In this document: positions 22,834 through 31,515 of the stretch, piece after piece
Position numbering within the stretch: position 1 is the stretch's first letter
Layout: each line of letters begins with the position of its first letter
NCBI RefSeq assembly: GCF_010726245.1
Contig: NZ_AP022561.1
Span: forward strand, 248,001 to 312,000
Length of the DNA stretch: 64,000 nucleotides
Direction: 5' to 3'
From: Mycolicibacterium aichiense
GTDB taxonomy: Bacteria > Actinomycetota > Actinomycetes > Mycobacteriales > Mycobacteriaceae
Position numbers and translations under genes: made by a program
Notes under the pieces: generated by a model
The model's input: the letters and a program-made list of their open reading frames with translations, nothing else
Told to the model about the DNA's origin: nothing
The model's database searches: none

Positions 22834-23418
22834 TCAGATGTACATGGCGGGGTCGACGTAGAACGTCGGATCCACCAGCTGTTCGCGTTGCCGTTCGTTG
22901 CGCGGCCGTACGACGGCGGGAATGCCGGTGGCGATCGAATCGGCCGGCACGTCGTGGGTGACGACGGCGTTCGCGCCGATGGCGCTGTCGTCACCAATAA
23001 CCAAGGGGCCCAGTATTTTTGCTCCGGCACCCACAACCACTCGATCCCCGAGGGTGGGGTGGCGTTTACCGTGTTCCAGCGAGCGGCCGCCGAGTGTGAC
23101 GCCGTGATAGAGCATCACGTCGTCGCCGATCTCGGCGGTCTCGCCGATCACGACGCCCATGCCGTGGTCGATGAAGAAGCGGCGGCCGATGGTGGCGCCG
23201 GGGTGGATCTCGATGCCGGTGGCGAAGCGGGTCAGCTGCGACAGCACCCGGGCCGGACCGCGCAATGCCGGTCTGGCCCACAGCCGGTGCGCCAGCCGAT
23301 AGGACCAGATGGCGTGCAGGCCGGAGTAGACCAACGCGTTCTCGACATCGCCGCGCGCGGCCGGGTCGTGGCCGCGCGCATTGCTCAGATCCTCACGCAG
23401 TGTGGACAGCAGGCCCAT
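22834..23418 (-). CDS. cysE: Serine O-acetyltransferase CysE
   Basis: Makes O-acetylserine from serine and acetyl-CoA, the substrate for CysK. From ATG 23418 the product is 194 aa, a short SAT as in many actinobacteria. After an N-terminal helical part, the left-handed beta-helix hexapeptide repeats are clear: [56 protein letters not shown] and [12 protein letters not shown]; the catalytic His is in HPGATIG/DHGMG. The ATG lies 4 bases after the true cysK stop. In this sequence the frame is also joined to the cysK frame by a frameshift. Confidence 0.95.
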
Positions 23419-23422
23419 GAAG

Positions 23423-24360
23423 TCAGTCCCTGATGTGCTCGAAAAGTGGTGTGGAGATATAGCGCTCGCCGTAGTCGCAGACGATCGCCACGCGATGAGC
23501 TTGCCTGCGTTCTCCGGACGCTTGGCGATCTCCAGGGCGGCCCACACGATCGCGCCAGACGAGATGCCGCCCAGAATGCCTTCCGCGGTTCCCAGGTCCC
23601 GGGCCACCCTGATGGCGTCGTCGAGCTCGACGTCGACGATCTCGTCGTAGGCGCCGCGATCGAGCACCTCGGGAACGAAGTTGGCCCCCATGCCCTGGAT
23701 CTTGTGCGGCCCGGCCTTGCCTTCGGTCAGCAGCGGCGAGTCCTTCGGCTCGACTCCGACGATCTGGACACCGGGCTTGCGCTCTTTGAGTACGTGTCCC
23801 ACCCCGGTGACGGTGCCGCCGGTGCCGATGCCCGCGACGAAGATGTCGACCTTGCCGTCGGTGTCGTTCCAGACTTCTTCCGCGGTGGTCTTCTCGTGGA
23901 TGGCCGGGTTGGCCGGGTTCCCGAACTGGTTCGCCGAGACGGCGTTGTCGGTCTCGGCGATGATCTGGCGGGACTTCTCCACCGCGCCCGCCATGCCTTC
24001 GGAGCCGGGGGTGAGCACGATCTCGGCGCCATAAGCGCGCAGCATCACCCGGCGTTCGGTCGACATGGTCTCGGGCATCGTCAGGATGACCTTGTACCCG
24101 CGGGCAGCGCCGACCATCGCCAGCGCGATACCGGTGTTGCCACTGGTGGCCTCGACGATCGTGCCGCCGGGCTTCAGCTCACCGGAGGCTTCTGCCGCAT
24201 CGATGATCGCCACGCCGATGCGGTCCTTGACGCTGTTGGCCGGGTTGTAGAACTCGAGCTTGACCGCGACCTCGGCGTCGAGGCCCTCGGTCAGTCGGTT
24301 GAGTCGGACCAGCGGCGTGTGGCCGACCAGTTCGGTGACGTTGTCATAGATCTTGCCCAT
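23423..24360 (-). CDS. cysK: O-acetylserine sulfhydrylase CysK, with a frameshift near the 3' end
   Basis: PLP enzyme that makes cysteine from O-acetylserine and sulfide. From ATG 24360 (AGAAGGGA about 10 bases upstream) it shows [11 protein letters not shown] with PLP Lys45, TSGNTGIAL and the glycine-rich [11 protein letters not shown]. The frame is normal to PENAGKLIA; at about 23490 it shifts. The next frame encodes [19 protein letters not shown] then IRD and a stop at 23423-23425, a perfect CysK tail. One G appears lost from a GCGGTGGCG-like sequence. In the printed reading frame the protein instead runs into cysE (520 aa from an upstream start). No other damage is seen, so it is a recent mutation or a sequence error. 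Confidence 0.88.
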
Positions 24361-24429
24361 GCTGCGCGTCCCTTCTCGTGGCACCCCACCGAACACTATT
24401 CTGTCGGCCGCTGGTCGTACGGTTGGGGC

Positions 24430-25017
24430 ATGGCTGGCGAACTGACCTCAGGACCGGACGCTCCACCCACCGACGAACTGGCCAGTGCTGAAGCATCGCT
24501 CCAGGTTCTCCAACACGTATTGCACGGTATTGCTTCCGATGATTTAAACAAGCAGACACCGTGCCGCGAGTTCGACGTTGCCGGGCTCACCGATCACCTG
24601 CTGAATTCGATCACCCTGTTGGGTGGCGCGGCCGGCGCGCAGTTTCCGGAGCGCGACCGCGATGACTCCGTCGAACGTCAGGTGATCGCCGCGGCCCGGC
24701 CTGCGGTGGACGCCTGGCGGCGCCGCGGGCTGGACGGCACGGTGCCGTTCGGCGAGAACGAGGCGCCCGCGCGGTTCATGGCCGGCATCCTGTCGGTCGA
24801 ATTCCTGATTCACGCGTGGGATTACGCGTCGGCGATCGGTCGCCCGATCGATGCCCCGGACTCGTTGACCGAGTACGTGTCGGGCCTGGCGCGCCGCATC
24901 ATCACCCCGGAGGGGCGCGTCAGGGCCGGTTTCGACGACCCGGTCGACGTCGGCCGGCACGCGCCCAAACTGGACCAGCTGGTCGCCTTCACCGGCAGGA
25001 CACCGGTCAGCGGGTAG
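24430..25017 (+). CDS. Mycothiol-dependent maleylpyruvate-isomerase-family protein (TIGR03086-like)
   Basis: A 195-aa DinB-like helical-bundle protein of the mycothiol-dependent enzyme group. The metal-binding region shows [15 protein letters not shown] near residue 50 (first His) and [17 protein letters not shown] near residue 125 (second His), with [11 protein letters not shown] before them. I chose ATG 24430; the open frame further upstream lies over cysK. It diverges from cysK across 69 bases and overlaps the convergent hisC2 stop by 11 bases. Substrate unknown. Confidence 0.85.
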
Positions 25018-26077
25018 CGATCCACTTCCGGGCGAACCCCAGGAACGCGTCGTTCTCCTCGGGTGCGCCGATCGTCACCCGCACGCCGTCGGTGCCGTAA
25101 GGGCGCACCAAGACGCGGTCGTCGGCGGCCTTCTCGACAAAGTCGGGCGTCTCGTCCGGCGTCAGCGGCAGCCACACGAAGTTCGCCTGCGATGGCGGGA
25201 AGCGGTAGCCGAGCTCGGTGAGCGCGGCGCAGACCCGGCGGCGTTCGGCGACCACGGCGTCGGTGCGGGCCAGCAGCTCGTCCGCGGCGTTCACGGACGC
25301 GATCGCCGCGGCCTGCGAGACGGTGGTCGCGGTGAACGGCACGTAGACCTTGCCCAGCGCGGTGATGATGTCGGGATCGCCGACGGCGTAACCGATCCGC
25401 AACCCGGCCAGCCCGTAGGCTTTCGAAAAGGTGCGCAGCACAACGACATTGGAGTGGTCCCGGACCAGTGCGAGGCTGTCGGGCAGCATCCCGTCGCGAA
25501 TGTATTCGACGTAGGCCTCGTCGATGGCGATGAGGATGTCCGACGGCACGGCGGCGACGAACCGGGCGAGTGCGTCGGGGTCCACGACAGTAGAGGTCGG
25601 GTTGTTCGGGTTGCAGACGAAGATCAGGCGCGTGCGGTCGGTGATCGCGGCGAGCATGGCGTCGAGGTCGAACGTGTAGTCGCGCAGCGGCACCTGGACA
25701 GCGGTGGCGCCGGCGACCCGGACCTGCAACGGGTAGATCTCGAAGCTGCGCCAGCCGAAGACCACCTCGTCTCCGACGGAGGCGGTGATCTGGATGAGCT
25801 GCTGGCACAGGCTCACCGATCCGCAGCCGACGGCGATGTTCTCGGGGGCGAACGGCCCGTCCTTGCTCAGGTGCTTGGCCAGGTGCTCCTTGAGCTCCAC
25901 GCAGCCGTTGTCGGGGTAGCGGTTGATGGTCTCGGCGGATGCGGCGATCGCCGAGCGCACGCTGGGCAGCGGCCCGTGCACGGTCTCGTTGCTGGCCAAC
26001 TTGATGGCGCCCGGCACCGTCTTGCCCGGGGTGTAGGCCGGCAGGTCGGCCAGTTCAGGGCGTAGGCGGGCAGTCAT
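25007..26077 (-). CDS. hisC2: Histidinol-phosphate/aromatic aminotransferase HisC2
   Basis: Class I/II PLP aminotransferase of 356 aa, very like Rv3772. Such second HisC proteins act on imidazole-acetol-phosphate and/or aromatic keto acids. From ATG 26077 (MTARLRPELADLPAY) it shows GAIKLASNETVHGPL, RYPDNGC, NPNNPTS near residue 160, AIDEAYVEYIRDG and the lysine motif TFSKAYGLAGLRIGYA near residue 215; the C-terminal arginine region is VRPYGTDGVRVT. The 26110 start was rejected because MTARLRPEL matches the family. Confidence 0.93.
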   Translation of the reverse strand: MTARLRPELADLPAYTPGKTVPGAIKLASNETVHGPLPSVRSAIAASAETINRYPDNGCVELKEHLAKHLSKDGPFAPENIAVGCGSVSLCQQLIQITASVGDEVVFGWRSFEIYPLQVRVAGATAVQVPLRDYTFDLDAMLAAITDRTRLIFVCNPNNPTSTVVDPDALARFVAAVPSDILIAIDEAYVEYIRDGMLPDSLALVRDHSNVVVLRTFSKAYGLAGLRIGYAVGDPDIITALGKVYVPFTATTVSQAAAIASVNAADELLARTDAVVAERRRVCAALTELGYRFPPSQANFVWLPLTPDETPDFVEKAADDRVLVRPYGTDGVRVTIGAPEENDAFLGFARKWIATR

Positions 26078-26161
26078 TTGTCCAAGTCTAAGTGGGCTGT
26101 GTACTCTCATCCATCGGCGGTTCGGGGCATCAGTCAGGCTCCGGTACGCTCAGGTAGTTCA

Positions 26162-26291: not shown

Positions 26292-26364
26292 GCGCCCGTA
26301 GCTCAACGGATAGAGCATCTGACTACGGATCAGAAGGTTAGGGGTTCGAATCCCTTCGGGCGCA
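26292..26364 (+). tRNA. tRNA-Arg (anticodon ACG), island attachment site
   Basis: Acceptor arms GCGCCCG (26292-26298) and CGGGCGC (26357-26363), D-arm GCTCAACGGATAGAGC, anticodon loop CTACGGA (ACG) and T-arm GGGGTTCGAATCCC. CCA follows in the genome at 26365-26367. Its 3' half is repeated at 30235, so this gene was the integration target of the island that follows. Confidence 0.95.
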
Positions 26365-26365
26365 C
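26330..26365 (+). repeat. Left attachment repeat in the tRNA-Arg 3' end
   Basis: A 36-bp sequence running from the anticodon stem through the T-arm to the acceptor end (begins TCAGAAGGTTAGGGG, ends TTCGGGCGCAC) is repeated exactly at 30235-30270 in direct orientation. This is the expected core of a tyrosine-recombinase attachment site. Confidence 0.9.
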
Positions 26366-27231
26366 CATAATTCGAGTTAAAGCGGCGTTTGTCGGTCAGC
26401 TGGCAAACGCTTCTGCATTTCCCGCACTTTCCCCGTAAATTCGATTGTCGGCCTGCGTTGCTGGCCCATTGATCCAGCACAGCGCGGGTATCGGGTCCGG
26501 TCGTCGTCCGCTGCAAATAGTGGCCCTCGGTGGGGGCCAGCTGCGCATGGGAGAGCTGTTGTTGCGCCGCCTCGACACCCATGCCGTCCCTCACGACCGT
26601 GGCCACTGACCGCCGGAACGAGTGCGGCGTCACCCGGCAGAGGTGCTCGTGTGGCTGCAGGGCCCCTGGCGATGTTCGATGCGCTGATCCAGCCGCCGTC
26701 GCGGTTCGTCAGCACCGGCCAACCGGACCGGTCAGCGCGAAGAGCTCCCTCAGGACCGCGACGCCGAATGCCGGCAACACCACAGAGTGCCCGGGGGTCC
26801 CCTTGCGCGCATTCTGTCTGTGCTGTGGCCTTTCCGGGGATCGGCCCGTGATCGATGAGAGTGCCAATGAGGGCCCCTGTCGGCGATTTACCGAGAAGGT
26901 CGACCTCCTACCATCAACAGCCAGCACCTCGGCCGCCCGGGCTCGGTCGCCGCCAGCAGCTCGACGTACTCAGGTATTGGAGGTGCCCGCCGCAGTCCAT
27001 GACCTGTGCGCGGTGAATTTTTTGCAGGGCCTGGCGTACCTGTTCGAAATCGAAGGCCGTCAACGCCCGGGCTAGCTTGGGCTGCGGCCTGGCCGTCTTG
27101 GTCTCGCGGATGCCGTTTGCGCGCACGGCATCGAACCTCGCGACGAGCCCGTGCGTGCGGGTGAGGACTGTGCGCATCTTGGTGTCCGCAGTCGGGCCGG
27201 CTGGGAGCGCCTTCAGGCGCGCGTTAGCCAC
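26366..27231 (-). pseudogene. Tyrosine integrase remnant with several frameshifts
   Basis: Pieces of one integrase appear in order in different frames. From 27231: MANARLKALPAGPTADTKMR and a core-binding-like end (LARALTAFDFEQVRQALQK), then YVELLAATEPG and, in a third frame, ERPQHRQNARKGTPGHSVVLPAFGV (two stretches joined here: ERPQHRQNARK and GTPGHSVVLPAFGV). Next, after a shift near 26710, VLTNRDGGWISASNIAR and, after another near 26665, VTPHSFRRSVATVVRDGM with the HxxR motif and QLSHAQLAPTEGHYLQR with the nucleophile Tyr. At least three frame changes make it inactive. The end reads on into the tRNA-Arg in antisense, so its natural stop was lost or lay across the attachment site. Confidence 0.82.
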
Positions 27232-27259
27232 AAGCTTCTCACGTTAATCGCACAATCCC

Positions 27260-29350
27260 TTATCGCGTCGCGAGCACATCCTTCATCGCAGTTTCAAGGG
27301 GTTGCGCCAATGTCTGCATGAACGTTGCGGTCGGATGGGAGTTCTTCAACGAGTCTGAGGCGTCGCTGTAGACGATGACGTTCCCGATAACCGAGGGGCA
27401 CCGATCCACGTTGCAGTAGAACTTAGTGAAGTCGACCAACGTCACGCCGGGGGTCGCTTTCGCAGCAGAGGCGAGAGCGTCGGCGCCTGGGATCGCCTGT
27501 GCACGGGGGGTTCCGCAATCGCCGGTGTGGTCGGCGTCGAAGGTCACTCTGGTCAGGCACGCCAACGATTCTTCGCTGGCGGCTGGGTTGTCCAACACAA
27601 CAACGATCCGGCTGCCCGCCGCCATGATCGGTGCCCACGCCCGCTCATAATCACCTGCGGTGACAGACGATTCACGGTTCAGATTGGTCGTTATCACCAT
27701 GTTGTAGCGGTGCGCGACGAGCTGCGCTTGGATGTTGGGAATGAGCCAGTCGCAACCATCGGGTTGGTCAGCGAGGACGCAATCCACCCCCAGATAGGTG
27801 GTCAGATGCCACTTGTTCTTGTCAAGGAGTGGCCACAAGGCGGGTAGTAATGCCCTGGCGTGGGAGTCGCCGACGAGCGCGATTTGCGTAGCGTCGGGAC
27901 CGACGTACCCGAAGCTGCATGTCTTGACCTCAACGGGGTCGGTCTTGTTGCGGTAGCAGCCGAGTTCACCGGGGATGTCCTTGGCGAAATCGTCAATGGA
28001 CGGGCTCAGTGCGTACTCCGTGTTCCGTAGCGGACAGCCCGGGGTGATCATGGCGGCAGAGCCGAAACACGGGTCAGCTTTTGGCGTCAAGACCGCCTGT
28101 GGTGTGTTGGATGCGACGTTCGGGGCGGGATGATCGAGTTGGATGGTCGCGATAGTCACCACAACAGCTGAGGCGGCTGCGAAGCCCACCAGCCCCCACG
28201 CCGATGGGTCCAGAGCCTTGCGCCGTCCGCTCCTGCGAGTCTTGAGTAGCCACCGGGACTTACGAATCGGGTTCTCGTAGAACCGGTACGTCACTGCCGT
28301 CAATGCCAGCGACACAACAACAGCGATCGTGTAGAACGTGACACCCTTGGGAAGAAGGGCCACGAGCAGCACGATCACCGGCCAATGCCACAGATACAGG
28401 GTGTAGCTGGTGTCACCGAAGTACTGGACCACGCGGTTGGTCAGCGGCGCCATCACACGCGGCACCGGGGCTCCGTGGAAGGCGGCAACGACCACCGCAG
28501 TGGATAGCACGGGCAGAGCTGCCCACGGTGCCGGGAACTGGACAGCGGGGTTGATCAGGAACAGCGACGCCACCACCCCGGCTAAGCCGGCGTAGGCCAG
28601 GGCGGGGCGGGTTGGTGACGGGATGCGTTCGAGCCACGGTCCCGCGATCGCAACGAGCGCTCCCATCCCGAGTTCCCAGATGCGGGCGAACGTGGAGAAG
28701 TAGGCGGCGTTCGGATCAGTAGCCGACAGGTACATGGCCCACCCGAACGACGCGGCCACGATCAGGCCCATCACGGCGAGCATCCCCCACTCGCGGGCTC
28801 GCCGCATGTGCCGCTGCCGCAACGGGCGGGTTACGGCGAACACCACCACCAGCAGCAGCGGCCACACGAAATAGAACTGCTCCTCGATCGACAGTGACCA
28901 GTAGTGCTGAATCGGTGACGGCGGGCGGGCGGATTGGAAATAGTCGGCTCCGACTGCCTCAAACCGGAAGTTCGACGCGAACACCGCTGCATACAGGGCA
29001 TCGAGCAGCGTGTCCTTCGCCCGAGTCGCAGTGAACAGCAGATAGCCAGCCGCAACCGTCACAACCAGGACCAGCAGAGCCGACGGGATGATTCGCTTGA
29101 CGCGCCGGGTGTAGAAGTTCTGGAACGACAGTTTGTGGGTGGCTTTGCGTTCCCGAATCAGCAGGCCAGTGATGAAGAACCCGGACAGCACGAAGAAGAT
29201 GTCGACGCCGACGAATCCGCCGGAGGGCCAGCCGAAAAGGTGATTGGCGAACACCGTCAGGACAGCGACAGCGCGCATCCCTTGCAGGTCAGGGCGGCGC
29301 TGTGCCGCACCACGCTGCTTTTGTGTTTGACCGCGCTCCACCGTCGTCAT
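27260..29350 (-). CDS. O-acyltransferase with C-terminal SGNH domain (OafA/YrhL type)
   Basis: A 696-aa protein predicted to add acyl (often acetyl) groups to a cell-surface sugar. Residues about 20-370 form the acyltransferase-3 membrane domain: RRPDLQGMRAVAVLTVFANH with the R/H pair, GGFVGVDIFFVLSGFFITGLL and HYWSLSIEEQFYFVWPLLL, about ten helices. After a linker, the SGNH domain (about 440-690) shows IALVGDSHARALL with the catalytic Ser and SLKNSHPTATF with the Asp/His pair region. It is the main intact gene of the island and is read away from the right end; the nearest comparison is serotype-type surface modification. The acceptor is unknown. Confidence 0.92.
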   Translation of the reverse strand: MTTVERGQTQKQRGAAQRRPDLQGMRAVAVLTVFANHLFGWPSGGFVGVDIFFVLSGFFITGLLIRERKATHKLSFQNFYTRRVKRIIPSALLVLVVTVAAGYLLFTATRAKDTLLDALYAAVFASNFRFEAVGADYFQSARPPSPIQHYWSLSIEEQFYFVWPLLLVVVFAVTRPLRQRHMRRAREWGMLAVMGLIVAASFGWAMYLSATDPNAAYFSTFARIWELGMGALVAIAGPWLERIPSPTRPALAYAGLAGVVASLFLINPAVQFPAPWAALPVLSTAVVVAAFHGAPVPRVMAPLTNRVVQYFGDTSYTLYLWHWPVIVLLVALLPKGVTFYTIAVVVSLALTAVTYRFYENPIRKSRWLLKTRRSGRRKALDPSAWGLVGFAAASAVVVTIATIQLDHPAPNVASNTPQAVLTPKADPCFGSAAMITPGCPLRNTEYALSPSIDDFAKDIPGELGCYRNKTDPVEVKTCSFGYVGPDATQIALVGDSHARALLPALWPLLDKNKWHLTTYLGVDCVLADQPDGCDWLIPNIQAQLVAHRYNMVITTNLNRESSVTAGDYERAWAPIMAAGSRIVVVLDNPAASEESLACLTRVTFDADHTGDCGTPRAQAIPGADALASAAKATPGVTLVDFTKFYCNVDRCPSVIGNVIVYSDASDSLKNSHPTATFMQTLAQPLETAMKDVLATR

Positions 29351-29383
29351 AACGCCCCCTAGCCCCCCGACTGCGCAGGGAGT

Positions 29384-29698
29384 TTACCCGCCGCCGGTCC
29401 GGCGCGCGTCGGTGTCGCTGAGTACCAGTACGCAAGAAGGTCGCTTCGGATGTTGGAAGGACGGCCAGTAAGCGTCGGCGTCGCAGGTACGACAATGCCA
29501 GCTGTTATGCCCGCCGCCACCATGGCCCCGGCAACATGACCGACGAGGACCGGATCGGCCGAGAGGATGGCCGTTTGGGCATCCGCCTGGCGACTTAATG
29601 ATCCAGCTGCCGTCGGAGGTTCGGACGAGCTCACCCCCGTGATGTTGCCCAGGCTTGAATCGGTTGTCGCGTGCGCGCGCCGTGCCGGAGATGTAAAT
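29384..29698 (-). pseudogene. Small zinc-finger-like protein gene, probably damaged
   Basis: A minus frame contains NRFKPGQHHGGELVRTSDG, SWIIKSPGGCPNGHPL, then after a scrambled part GHGGGGHNSWHCRTCDADAY. The paired CPNGH and CRTC cysteines look like one zinc site. In the middle the neighbouring frame reads DPVLVGHVAGAM, a plausible missing piece, so two nearly compensating indels seem to have occurred near 29520-29565. No convincing start codon is visible. I recall small mycobacterial hypothetical proteins of this look but cannot name one. Confidence 0.4.
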
Positions 29699-30234
29699 CA
29701 GCGACGCCGACGTGGAAGGCCTGGCATCGGATCGCCGCCGGCGCGGCCGCGGGCGAAAACAACCCTTATTCCGGCGCCCTGGATCTCTGCAGGCTGAGGT
29801 TGCCGCGCTCGTCGGAAACAGCAGCATCGAAGCGTCGATCGTTAGTTAGGACGGTACGGGCCCTTCCATCTGGTCGGATTACTCACCACTCCTGACTGCC
29901 GCTTGACGGGGTCCGTACGGTTCGACGCCGAGGTACAAGATCGGAAGACCGAAGACCCATTGGCCGGCGAAGTTGCGGAAGCGACTCAGGCGTCGATCAA
30001 TTGTCGGTGGAAATGTACGACGATCGAGGCCGATCCGACGGGTTCGTAGATCTTGTGCGCCCCCACATGGGGCTACAGGGCGCATCGGTTGCGCCTCTTC
30101 GCACATTCTCCGCATAAACGCCAGCGATTTAGCGAGTACCTACCTGTACTCACGCAGACCGCGTACTTACGTGATCGCTTGTGCCTCAGTACTTTAAGGA
30201 CCTTTCGAATATGCAGAGCATGTCTATGGTGACC
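29699..30234. other. Gene-poor right end of the island
   Basis: I see no convincing gene here. Several short open frames exist on both strands but none has a plausible start with recognisable protein. Parts near 30120-30230 look less GC-rich than the surroundings. This would be the original attachment-side leader of the element. Confidence 0.5.
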
Positions 30235-30270
30235 TCAGAAGGTTAGGGGTTCGAATCCCTTCGGGCGCAC
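30235..30270 (+). repeat. Right attachment repeat
   Basis: Exact 36-bp copy, in direct orientation, of the tRNA-Arg 3' segment at 26330-26365. It is not part of a second tRNA, because no anticodon or D-arm precedes it. Confidence 0.9.
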
Positions 30271-30387
30271 TCAGTTCAGAATTGCTTTCCCGGTCATCGG
30301 AGCAAACGGTCCCTAACGCGTTCCGGGAGCGTGAAGCCGTTACTATCGGTCGCAACTACATGAGCGTGTGACGATCGGGGCCGCGTC

Positions 30388-31515
30388 GTGCCGACCTACT
30401 CGAGAAGCTTCGCCGTCTTCCTCCCGCACCTGAGGGCATGGTGGAGCACACCGGTCGATTACGCGTCGCAAGTGCAGTACTTCACCCAACGGGCCATATC
30501 GGCACCCATCCAGTTTTTGATCGGACTTGGGACCGGCTTCAACGGGGTCCTGTCATTTGTGATCCTGCTTCCATCGGCGAACAACCGGGTGTCGCAGGTC
30601 GCGGTCGCGTTGTTCGCCGTGCTTCAGCTCGCGTGGGGCTGGATATGGTGCCGACGCCCGTGGCCGTCGCGACGAATGTCGCTGGCGTTCGTCGTCACCG
30701 CGGATATCGGAATAGCTGCGGTGGCGATATCGGATGCGAGCTGGCTGCTCGGTCTGTTCGGATTCAATGCGTTCGCCATGATCTCGGTGTACCTGATGTT
30801 CTTCGACGGCCCGAAAATCCTTGTCGCGCACTTATTGTGGATAATCCTGTCGACAGCGGGCTTCGCCATTCATGTCAGCATTGCCGGCGATTTCGACGTG
30901 CTCGCGTTCACGGCGAAAACGCTTGTCTCGGTCGGGCCGGTCGTCGCGACCCCACTCGGCATTCAGCTGGGCATCTGGGCGCTGCGCAATGAGGCCAACG
31001 ACTCGGTCACCGATCCGCTGACCGGTCTGTTGAACAGACGGGGACTGCACCTGCACATCGGCGACATCCTTCGCGAGCAGGCCCCTACCGAAACCGAGGT
31101 CGCCGTCATGGTGATCGATCTGGACCGCTTCAAAGAGATCAACGACACCTATGGTCATGCCATCGGTGACGAGGTCCTGGTCCGCAGTGCTCGGCGGGTG
31201 CGGTCTGCGGTGAGCCAGGGCGCGTTGGTGGCGCGCACCGGTGGTGAGGAATTCGTCGTCGTCGATCTGACCGTGCCCGGTGTGATTCAACGGAGCGCAG
31301 AACAGGTCAGGCATGCGATCAGCGCACCGGCCACCCGCACGGTCACCGCGAGTATCGGAGTCACCAGCCTGTCGACAGGCGTGTTCGTCGACGGTGTCGA
31401 CCCCGTGCCACTGCTGGAGACGATCATCGAACGCGCCGACCAGGCCATGTTCGAGGCGAAGCGCACGGGTGGCGATGCGGTCAGCTATCTGCCGCCCGTG
31501 GGTGGCCACCGCTGA
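30388..31515 (+). CDS. Membrane GGDEF-domain diguanylate cyclase
   Basis: A 375-aa protein from GTG 30388. About six predicted membrane helices fill residues 40-205, without a recognised sensor name. The GGDEF domain (about 205-370) shows DPLTGLLNRRGLHLHI, VMVIDLDRFKEINDTYGHAIGD and the active-site loop ARTGGEEFVVV, so it should make cyclic di-GMP. No RxxD inhibitory site is obvious. It is the first gene after the island, 117 bases past the repeat, and converges on the FAD monooxygenase. Confidence 0.9.
   Translation: MPTYSRSFAVFLPHLRAWWSTPVDYASQVQYFTQRAISAPIQFLIGLGTGFNGVLSFVILLPSANNRVSQVAVALFAVLQLAWGWIWCRRPWPSRRMSLAFVVTADIGIAAVAISDASWLLGLFGFNAFAMISVYLMFFDGPKILVAHLLWIILSTAGFAIHVSIAGDFDVLAFTAKTLVSVGPVVATPLGIQLGIWALRNEANDSVTDPLTGLLNRRGLHLHIGDILREQAPTETEVAVMVIDLDRFKEINDTYGHAIGDEVLVRSARRVRSAVSQGALVARTGGEEFVVVDLTVPGVIQRSAEQVRHAISAPATRTVTASIGVTSLSTGVFVDGVDPVPLLETIIERADQAMFEAKRTGGDAVSYLPPVGGHR

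Follow-up and report, generated by a model that had tools for sequence, protein, structure and literature searches.

A decayed tRNA-Arg island in Mycolicibacterium aichiense and its predicted surface-sugar acyltransferase

What has left an exact copy of one half of a tRNA-Arg gene, with no tRNA around it, 3.9 kb along the chromosome of Mycolicibacterium aichiense, and what might the large gene stranded between the two copies be doing there? The locus lies within a stretch of 64,000 nucleotides (contig NZ_AP022561.1, positions 248,001 to 312,000), hereafter 'the window', whose own numbering is used throughout. The original prediction, made from these letters alone, was of a small and now immobile genomic island whose retained cargo changes cell-surface sugars. 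As developed below, we consider it probable that this is the remnant of a decayed phage satellite or prophage at tRNA-Arg, its retained cargo acylating a surface polysaccharide in trans. The features on which the argument turns are as follows.

25007-26110, minus strand: hisC2-like aminotransferase, left flank, outside the element (ORF and domain match, relatives' loci)
26292-26367, plus strand: tRNA-Arg(ACG), the integration target, terminal CCA encoded (ARAGORN, Rfam)
26330-26365, plus strand: attL core, 36 bp, within tRNA-Arg (repeat search)
26451-27228, minus strand: tyrosine integrase fossil, residues ~126-385 of ~390 aa, two frames, stops, N-terminal third missing (profiles, blastx)
27260-29350, minus strand: intact 696-aa AT3-SGNH (OafB-like) acyltransferase (ORF, domains, tree, alignment, AlphaFold2)
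29384-29827, minus strand: 147-aa ORF with a weak phrog_12017 match, E 1.3e-5 (profile)
29671-30234, no strand assigned: decayed right end (collinearity with the G119 island)
30235-30270, plus strand: attR core, exact copy without a surrounding tRNA (repeat search, ARAGORN, Rfam)
30388-31515, plus strand: GGDEF protein, right flank, outside the element, adjoining a single-core tRNA-Arg in eight relatives (domain match)

An integration footprint at tRNA-Arg(ACG)

A repeat search of the window found 26330-26365 and 30235-30270 identical at 36 of 36 positions, 3,905 bp apart from start to start, and inspection of the junctions placed the end of identity at both edges of the 36 bp. By our own order-of-magnitude estimate, the chance of such an exact repeat in 64 kb is ~1e-12, and none is expected. 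The repeated unit is the 3' half of tRNA-Arg(ACG), the one tRNA-Arg called by ARAGORN (26292-26367), and Rfam at gathering thresholds recognised no other tRNA between 26200 and 30400. The exact second copy in the original prediction is thus borne out, and the idea that it forms part of a true second tRNA was rejected on both searches. A direct repeat of a tRNA 3' end at both boundaries is the arrangement by which a tRNA-integrated genomic island is recognised; here it encloses, all on the minus strand, the integrase fossil, the 696-aa ORF and a tail of ~0.9 kb. The GGDEF gene starts 117 bp beyond attR, and ORFs and domain matches agree with the flank identities first proposed, a hisC2-like aminotransferase on the left and a GGDEF protein on the right. 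Further to the left, a single 520-aa ORF (22834-24396, minus strand) joins a cysteine synthase (residues 1-301) to a serine acetyltransferase (302-520), both named by eye; the halves lie in different frames in G004, which implies a frame change near 23500 in the window, either real or a sequencing error.

The right-flank GGDEF protein was searched in 396 genomes of the genus, 61 of which gave a match at E <= 1e-70, and 17 loci of these homologues, mostly the top-ranked, were compared (G077, rank 8, was omitted because its tRNA-Arg locus was already in the comparison as L046, where it has no GGDEF match). Eight of the 17 (G313, G289, G322, G043, G024, G315, G053 and G151) hold the one-repeat empty site that the original prediction had anticipated: hisC2, tRNA-Ser, a single-core tRNA-Arg and GGDEF follow one another with no insert, and ~128-200 bp separate the core from the GGDEF match. 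These sites point to insertion of the island at tRNA-Arg, and they uphold the claim that the flanking genes stand in a conserved order; no relative compared lacked the island while keeping both repeats. In G286 and G184 the distance from core to GGDEF match is 0.63 and 0.97 kb, six of the 17 loci have no core in the stretch, and the GGDEF homologue of G109 lies on the opposite side of hisC2, so that this genome is uninformative on the right flank. G004, with flanks 88% and 85% identical to those of the window, has a single core, no island and ~0.73 kb of unrelated DNA replacing GGDEF. Nine further single-core loci found by the core alone (L039-L047) keep hisC2 on the left and have no close GGDEF on the right, for which reason they are weaker evidence of an empty site. 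M. sphagni (G184; L105, 3199-4041) has, 0.8 kb beyond its tRNA-Arg core, another copy that differs at four positions, and the pair may mark a very small remnant at this tRNA-Arg site. That the right-hand repeat is the relic of a duplicated tRNA, formed without any integration, has virtually no chance of being right, for nothing beyond the repeat itself speaks for it, the 5' half of the tRNA is absent before 30235, an integrase remnant adjoins the tRNA and eight relatives keep the empty site.

One detail of the junctions may record the passage of the element. The tRNA-Arg of the window encodes its CCA, but beyond the core of attR the chromosome reads TCA, as it also does in G119, the home of a second decayed island described below. 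Among the loci compared, only these two combine an attL with CCA and an attR flank without it, and in both the CCA probably came with the element. Across 32 loci CCA is encoded at five of ten with two cores and one of 20 with a single core; the remaining two are G184, with an exact and a four-mismatch core and no CCA, and G097, whose stretch is without the tRNA 5' half. CCA as a general scar of integration was rejected, since the chromosome-side attR flank also reads CA in G088, G169 and G185 and the pattern is reversed in G092.

A broken integrase and its relatives

The integrase beside the target site is present in the window's island as a fossil only. The original prediction of such a fossil is sound, weak though the match is by profile (PF00589 at E 1.5e-3, below the Pfam cut-off; phrog_1 at E 1e-4): blastx aligns it with intact integrases of ~390 aa, covering their residues ~126-385 in two frames that contain stops. 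When the G185 integrase was used as query against the M. aichiense genome, the fossil was the only match at E <= 1e-5. With the integrase broken and no second copy of the family found in its own genome, the island is likely to be immobile, as had been supposed.

The site itself has been anything but quiet. A scan of 198 genomes of the genus found two cores 2.5-23 kb apart in at least ten besides the window's own, and tRNA-Arg(ACG) is a hot spot. The fossil's family adjoins the tRNA at seven of ten two-core loci (G119, G192, G169, G168, G185, G120 and G054; the two-core stretch of G097 did not extend to the tRNA), full length in six, within elements of 8-15 kb, and truncated in G119. Its best DNA matches in the 198 genomes include loci next to tRNA-Gly(CCC), six of the nine looked at, so the family uses at least two tRNA targets. 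Relatives of the fossil integrase adjoin tRNA-Gly(CCC) at L253, L254, L256, L257, L258 and L260, with a full-length integrase ORF at five of these six. Ten ORFs chosen from four elements at the same tRNA-Arg, one of them without a family, gave an impression of what such elements carry: repressor, primase/helicase, terminase, portal and capsid families in G168, a capsid protease and head protein in G185, primase and head/tail proteins in G120, and a primase in G169. The ORFs of the window's island, scanned by profiles and blastx, yielded no recognisable capsid, terminase or other phage gene. At this tRNA-Arg the G088 genome (L029, 3531-6103) has a two-core island of 2.5 kb in which the fossil's integrase family gave no match; a 364-aa protein there is WXG100-like by eye.

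A second decayed island stands at this tRNA in G119, and its integrase remnant is 75% identical to the fossil over 594 bp. Its middle holds genes other than the window's (a WXG100-like plus Fic-like protein by eye), while three segments of the window's right end, 29671-29836, 29993-30074 and 30087-30273, are 69-72% identical to it and collinear with it. The tail described originally as gene-poor does have few genes, and the description is refined in that the G119 island is collinear with parts of its last ~0.6 kb. The 147-aa ORF in the tail, which found no match in a tblastn search of phages, is perhaps a gene remnant.

The acyltransferase and its likely acceptor

The island itself is ordinary; its recurrent cargo is the point of interest. 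The 696-aa protein, taken from the outset for a sugar O-acyltransferase, does join an AT3 domain (PF01757, E 7e-30) to an SGNH domain (PF19040, E 2e-15), and it matches PHROG 6705 (O-antigen acetylase) at 490 bits. Its catalytic motifs are R-X10-H at R26-H37 and GDSH at 494-497, and D663 and H672 are invariant in 20 aligned homologues. Between these two residues the window's enzyme carries a loop insertion of five residues, the longest of the 20; insertions of 3-5 residues in this catalytic loop set the enzymes of the window, M. sphagni and G329 apart from the rest, among which G223 has a single added residue and 16 have none. Among PDB structures the AlphaFold2 model (mean pLDDT 83.6, pTM 0.80) has a single match under E 0.001, which is also its best: 6se1 (E 2.6e-4, 16% identity), a periplasmic domain from a Salmonella LPS acetyltransferase. 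The model's membrane part weakly matches HGSNAT (E ~0.07), and a search of the PDB by sequence gave no match. Mismatches against M. sphagni at the three codon positions (0.28, 0.22 and 0.54) would fit a constrained protein, the constraint not being datable to after integration. Regulatory motifs in the island amounted to one terminator-like match, within chance, and no promoter-like match was found. By analogy with its family, the protein is predicted to be an OafB-like membrane enzyme that transfers acyl groups to an exported glycan.

Which glycan that might be is suggested by the company its relatives keep. Among the 58 best relatives typed, with few candidates scored per genome and many matching the AT3 half only, 35 have a homologue of the BY-kinase of the M. 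aichiense polysaccharide locus no more than 30 kb away. This kinase (E <= 1e-130) occurs in 10 of 12 close-clade carriers, the window's own genome included, and in 111 of the remaining 384 genomes (Fisher p 2e-4, ignoring shared descent). Within the close clade the proximity is less consistent: the gene lies within 30 kb of the kinase in just four of the 11 other carriers, 57 kb away in G209, and elsewhere in G187 and G096, and no kinase was found at the cut-off in G329 and G123. That locus lies near 4.77 Mb in the 5.93-Mb genome of M. aichiense and holds genes named by eye as LCP-like, BY-kinase, glycosyltransferase-like and flippase-like; the genome's five other AT3 matches all fall outside it. 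Elsewhere in this genome (L239, ~4.108-4.115 Mb), three AT3-type acyltransferase genes stand in a row. The island gene lies near 0.28 Mb, so the enzyme would act in trans, and its likeliest acceptor would be the polysaccharide of the BY-kinase locus. We infer from the domains and fold of the acyltransferase, together with its gene neighbourhood, that it may change surface sugars much as serotype-converting phages do, as first proposed.

The acceptor might instead be another glycan (arabinogalactan, lipoarabinomannan, glycopeptidolipid or peptidoglycan), to which we give a modest probability. AT3 proteins act on many envelope glycans in the systems described in PMC9558356, the distantly related SucT adds succinyl groups to arabinogalactan and lipoarabinomannan (PMC10503756), and the copy in G187 and G096 is flanked by treY/treZ-like and dnaE-like genes (named by eye). 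The wider relatives, however, are often near the kinase, in the 35 of 58 cases above, and an identity with SucT itself was rejected: the window's enzyme matches the profile of this mycobacterial envelope enzyme (NF058601; Rv1565c in M. tuberculosis, PMC10503756) over residues 11-688, but scores 241.1 bits where the cut-off is 1275. Our preferred acceptor remains the polysaccharide of the BY-kinase locus.

Origin of the cargo and its kinship with known systems

Mobile modification of surface sugars is well described in Gram-negative bacteria; for mycobacteria, no report was found by title in the literature searched, a scope outside which most subscription papers fall. How, then, did such a gene come to sit in a mycobacterial island? 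In a tree of 31 rows, six of them phage or viral (the broken G209 copy was left out, and two long-branch paralogues from the window's genome, which draw together, were retained), the window's enzyme pairs with that of M. sphagni (99/98), then with G329 (100/99), inside a nine-row mycobacterial clade (100/100). Gordonia phage BritBrat clusters with Gordonia lacunae (99/97), and neither it nor any other phage or viral row falls inside the mycobacterial clade. A recent phage gene as cargo is not supported by this topology, nor is the phage origin in the original prediction. The temperate actinophages BritBrat and LonelyBoi (Gordonia) and Peas (Arthrobacter) do carry such enzymes, between tail genes and integrase, which means that the enzyme type travels with phages even though the window's copy is mycobacterial.

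The closest relative has had a similar adventure at a different address. In M. sphagni (G184) the gene belongs to a tRNA-Met-linked insertion that also has an integrase remnant; tRNA-Met(CAT) stands on one side of the gene and a 28-bp repeat (27/28) of the tRNA 3' end on the other. Compared with G004, where the two flanks continue through tRNA-Met and leave <0.1 kb on each side of it, ~4.0 kb has been inserted. The integrase remnant (blastx E 3e-6) lies upstream of tRNA-Met and not between the tRNA and the acyltransferase, so the layout is not a textbook one. A tRNA-Met with one exact core stands upstream of the same neighbour gene in five of 11 other genomes checked, at ~0.15 kb in G004 and G289 and 0.85-1.04 kb in G043, G024 and G315; G053 has the exact core with no tRNA called, and no core lies within 1.5 kb of that gene in G286, G313, the window's own genome, G151 or G322. 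Exact 17-bp repeats were sought around the acyltransferase in ten of 12 carriers (excluding G123, on a 3.9-kb contig, and G209): they bracket it in the window and in M. sphagni, at a tRNA in both, with one stray pair 13 kb apart in L085 and none in the other seven. Acyltransferase loci were not found to be enriched near tRNAs: four in a set of 30 and five in a set of 80 had a tRNA at 1.5 kb or less, M. sphagni being one of them in each set. Microbacteriaceae bacterium VKM Ac-2854 (L202) has an AT3-SGNH gene, its product 36% identical, flanked by two full tRNA-Met genes with 79 identical bp in common, perhaps a third tRNA-linked case. We would suggest, tentatively, a mobile mycobacterial clade of surface-polysaccharide acyltransferases carried by tRNA-targeting elements, captured at least twice (at tRNA-Arg and tRNA-Met) with different integrases and detached from the polysaccharide loci of its relatives, which would rewrite a surface polysaccharide in trans as a counterpart of phage serotype conversion that outlives its element.

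Two other histories deserve weighing. In one, which we hold unlikely, the acyltransferase never was integrase cargo but reached the island separately and later, when decay was already under way. The 3' end of the gene does lie ~30 bp from the break point of the integrase fossil, the G119 island has the same ends around different middle genes, and the acyltransferase is the only part common to the window's island and the M. sphagni stretch; yet no transposase or further repeats were recognised around it, and the tRNA-linked insertion of its nearest relative, integrase remnant included, fits carriage by integrase elements. Also doubtful is descent from a full-size temperate phage and not a satellite, with the acyltransferase as a lysogenic-conversion gene near the attachment site. 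The fossil is 67% and 66% identical in DNA to the integrases of Mycobacterium phages Tortellini and Xavia over ~550 bp (a viral scan with the integrase gave five weak matches), PHROG 6705 is filed as a moron family, and the three actinophages keep their enzymes in just such a position. Against this, the phage rows lie outside the enzyme's mycobacterial clade, the other elements at tRNA-Arg, at 2.5-23 kb, are below usual phage size, and no core, allowing up to six mismatches, occurs in 8.6 kb around the Tortellini integrase.

Our preferred history, in which the ancestry would most likely be a phage satellite or small prophage, begins with a tyrosine-integrase element using tRNA-Arg(ACG), which would have recombined within the 36-bp 3' half of the tRNA and left attL and attR. 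It would then have lost most of its genes and the N-terminus of its integrase, becoming fixed with one intact gene, the OafB-like membrane acyltransferase. By family analogy, the AT3 domain would take an acyl group from acyl-CoA and move it through the membrane, and the SGNH domain would place it on a sugar of an exported glycan, in trans on the polysaccharide of the BY-kinase locus, and the change may alter recognition of the surface, for instance by phages.

The closest published elements are candidate Mycobacterium PICIs (PMC10654092), which have a tyrosine integrase beside a tRNA with attL and attR, as in the window's island, and phage-type genes of the kind seen in the G168, G185, G120 and G169 elements. 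The description includes a tRNA-arg site in M. abscessus (attB-26, given without its anticodon) and a cargo of ESX-secreted toxin systems, and the words 'acetyltransferase' and 'acyltransferase' do not occur in its main text. With its integrase a fossil and no capsid gene, the window's island falls outside the PICI definition given there. The enzyme has the AT3 and fused SGNH domains of OafB, with the R-X10-H and GDSH motifs, whereas OafB and OafA are O-antigen acetyltransferases acting on a different glycan and identity is low (16% to 6se1); Oac of phage Sf6, which acts on Shigella O-antigen, is a single-domain AT3 protein, unlike the window's (PMC9558356). Action at a distance has its precedent in the prophage-borne capsule modifiers Atr44 and phage Wzy of A. 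baumannii, where a mobile gene changes the polysaccharide of a distant locus in trans, as proposed here, although those are intact Gram-negative prophages with solved glycan structures and ours is a decayed element known from sequence (PMC13228068). Serotype-converting temperate phages, for their part, have structural genes around the converting gene, of which the island ORFs scanned hold none. If the reading is true, the locus would provide a concrete gene and a distant acceptor locus for element-driven change of the mycobacterial outer surface, and would bear on phage sensitivity.
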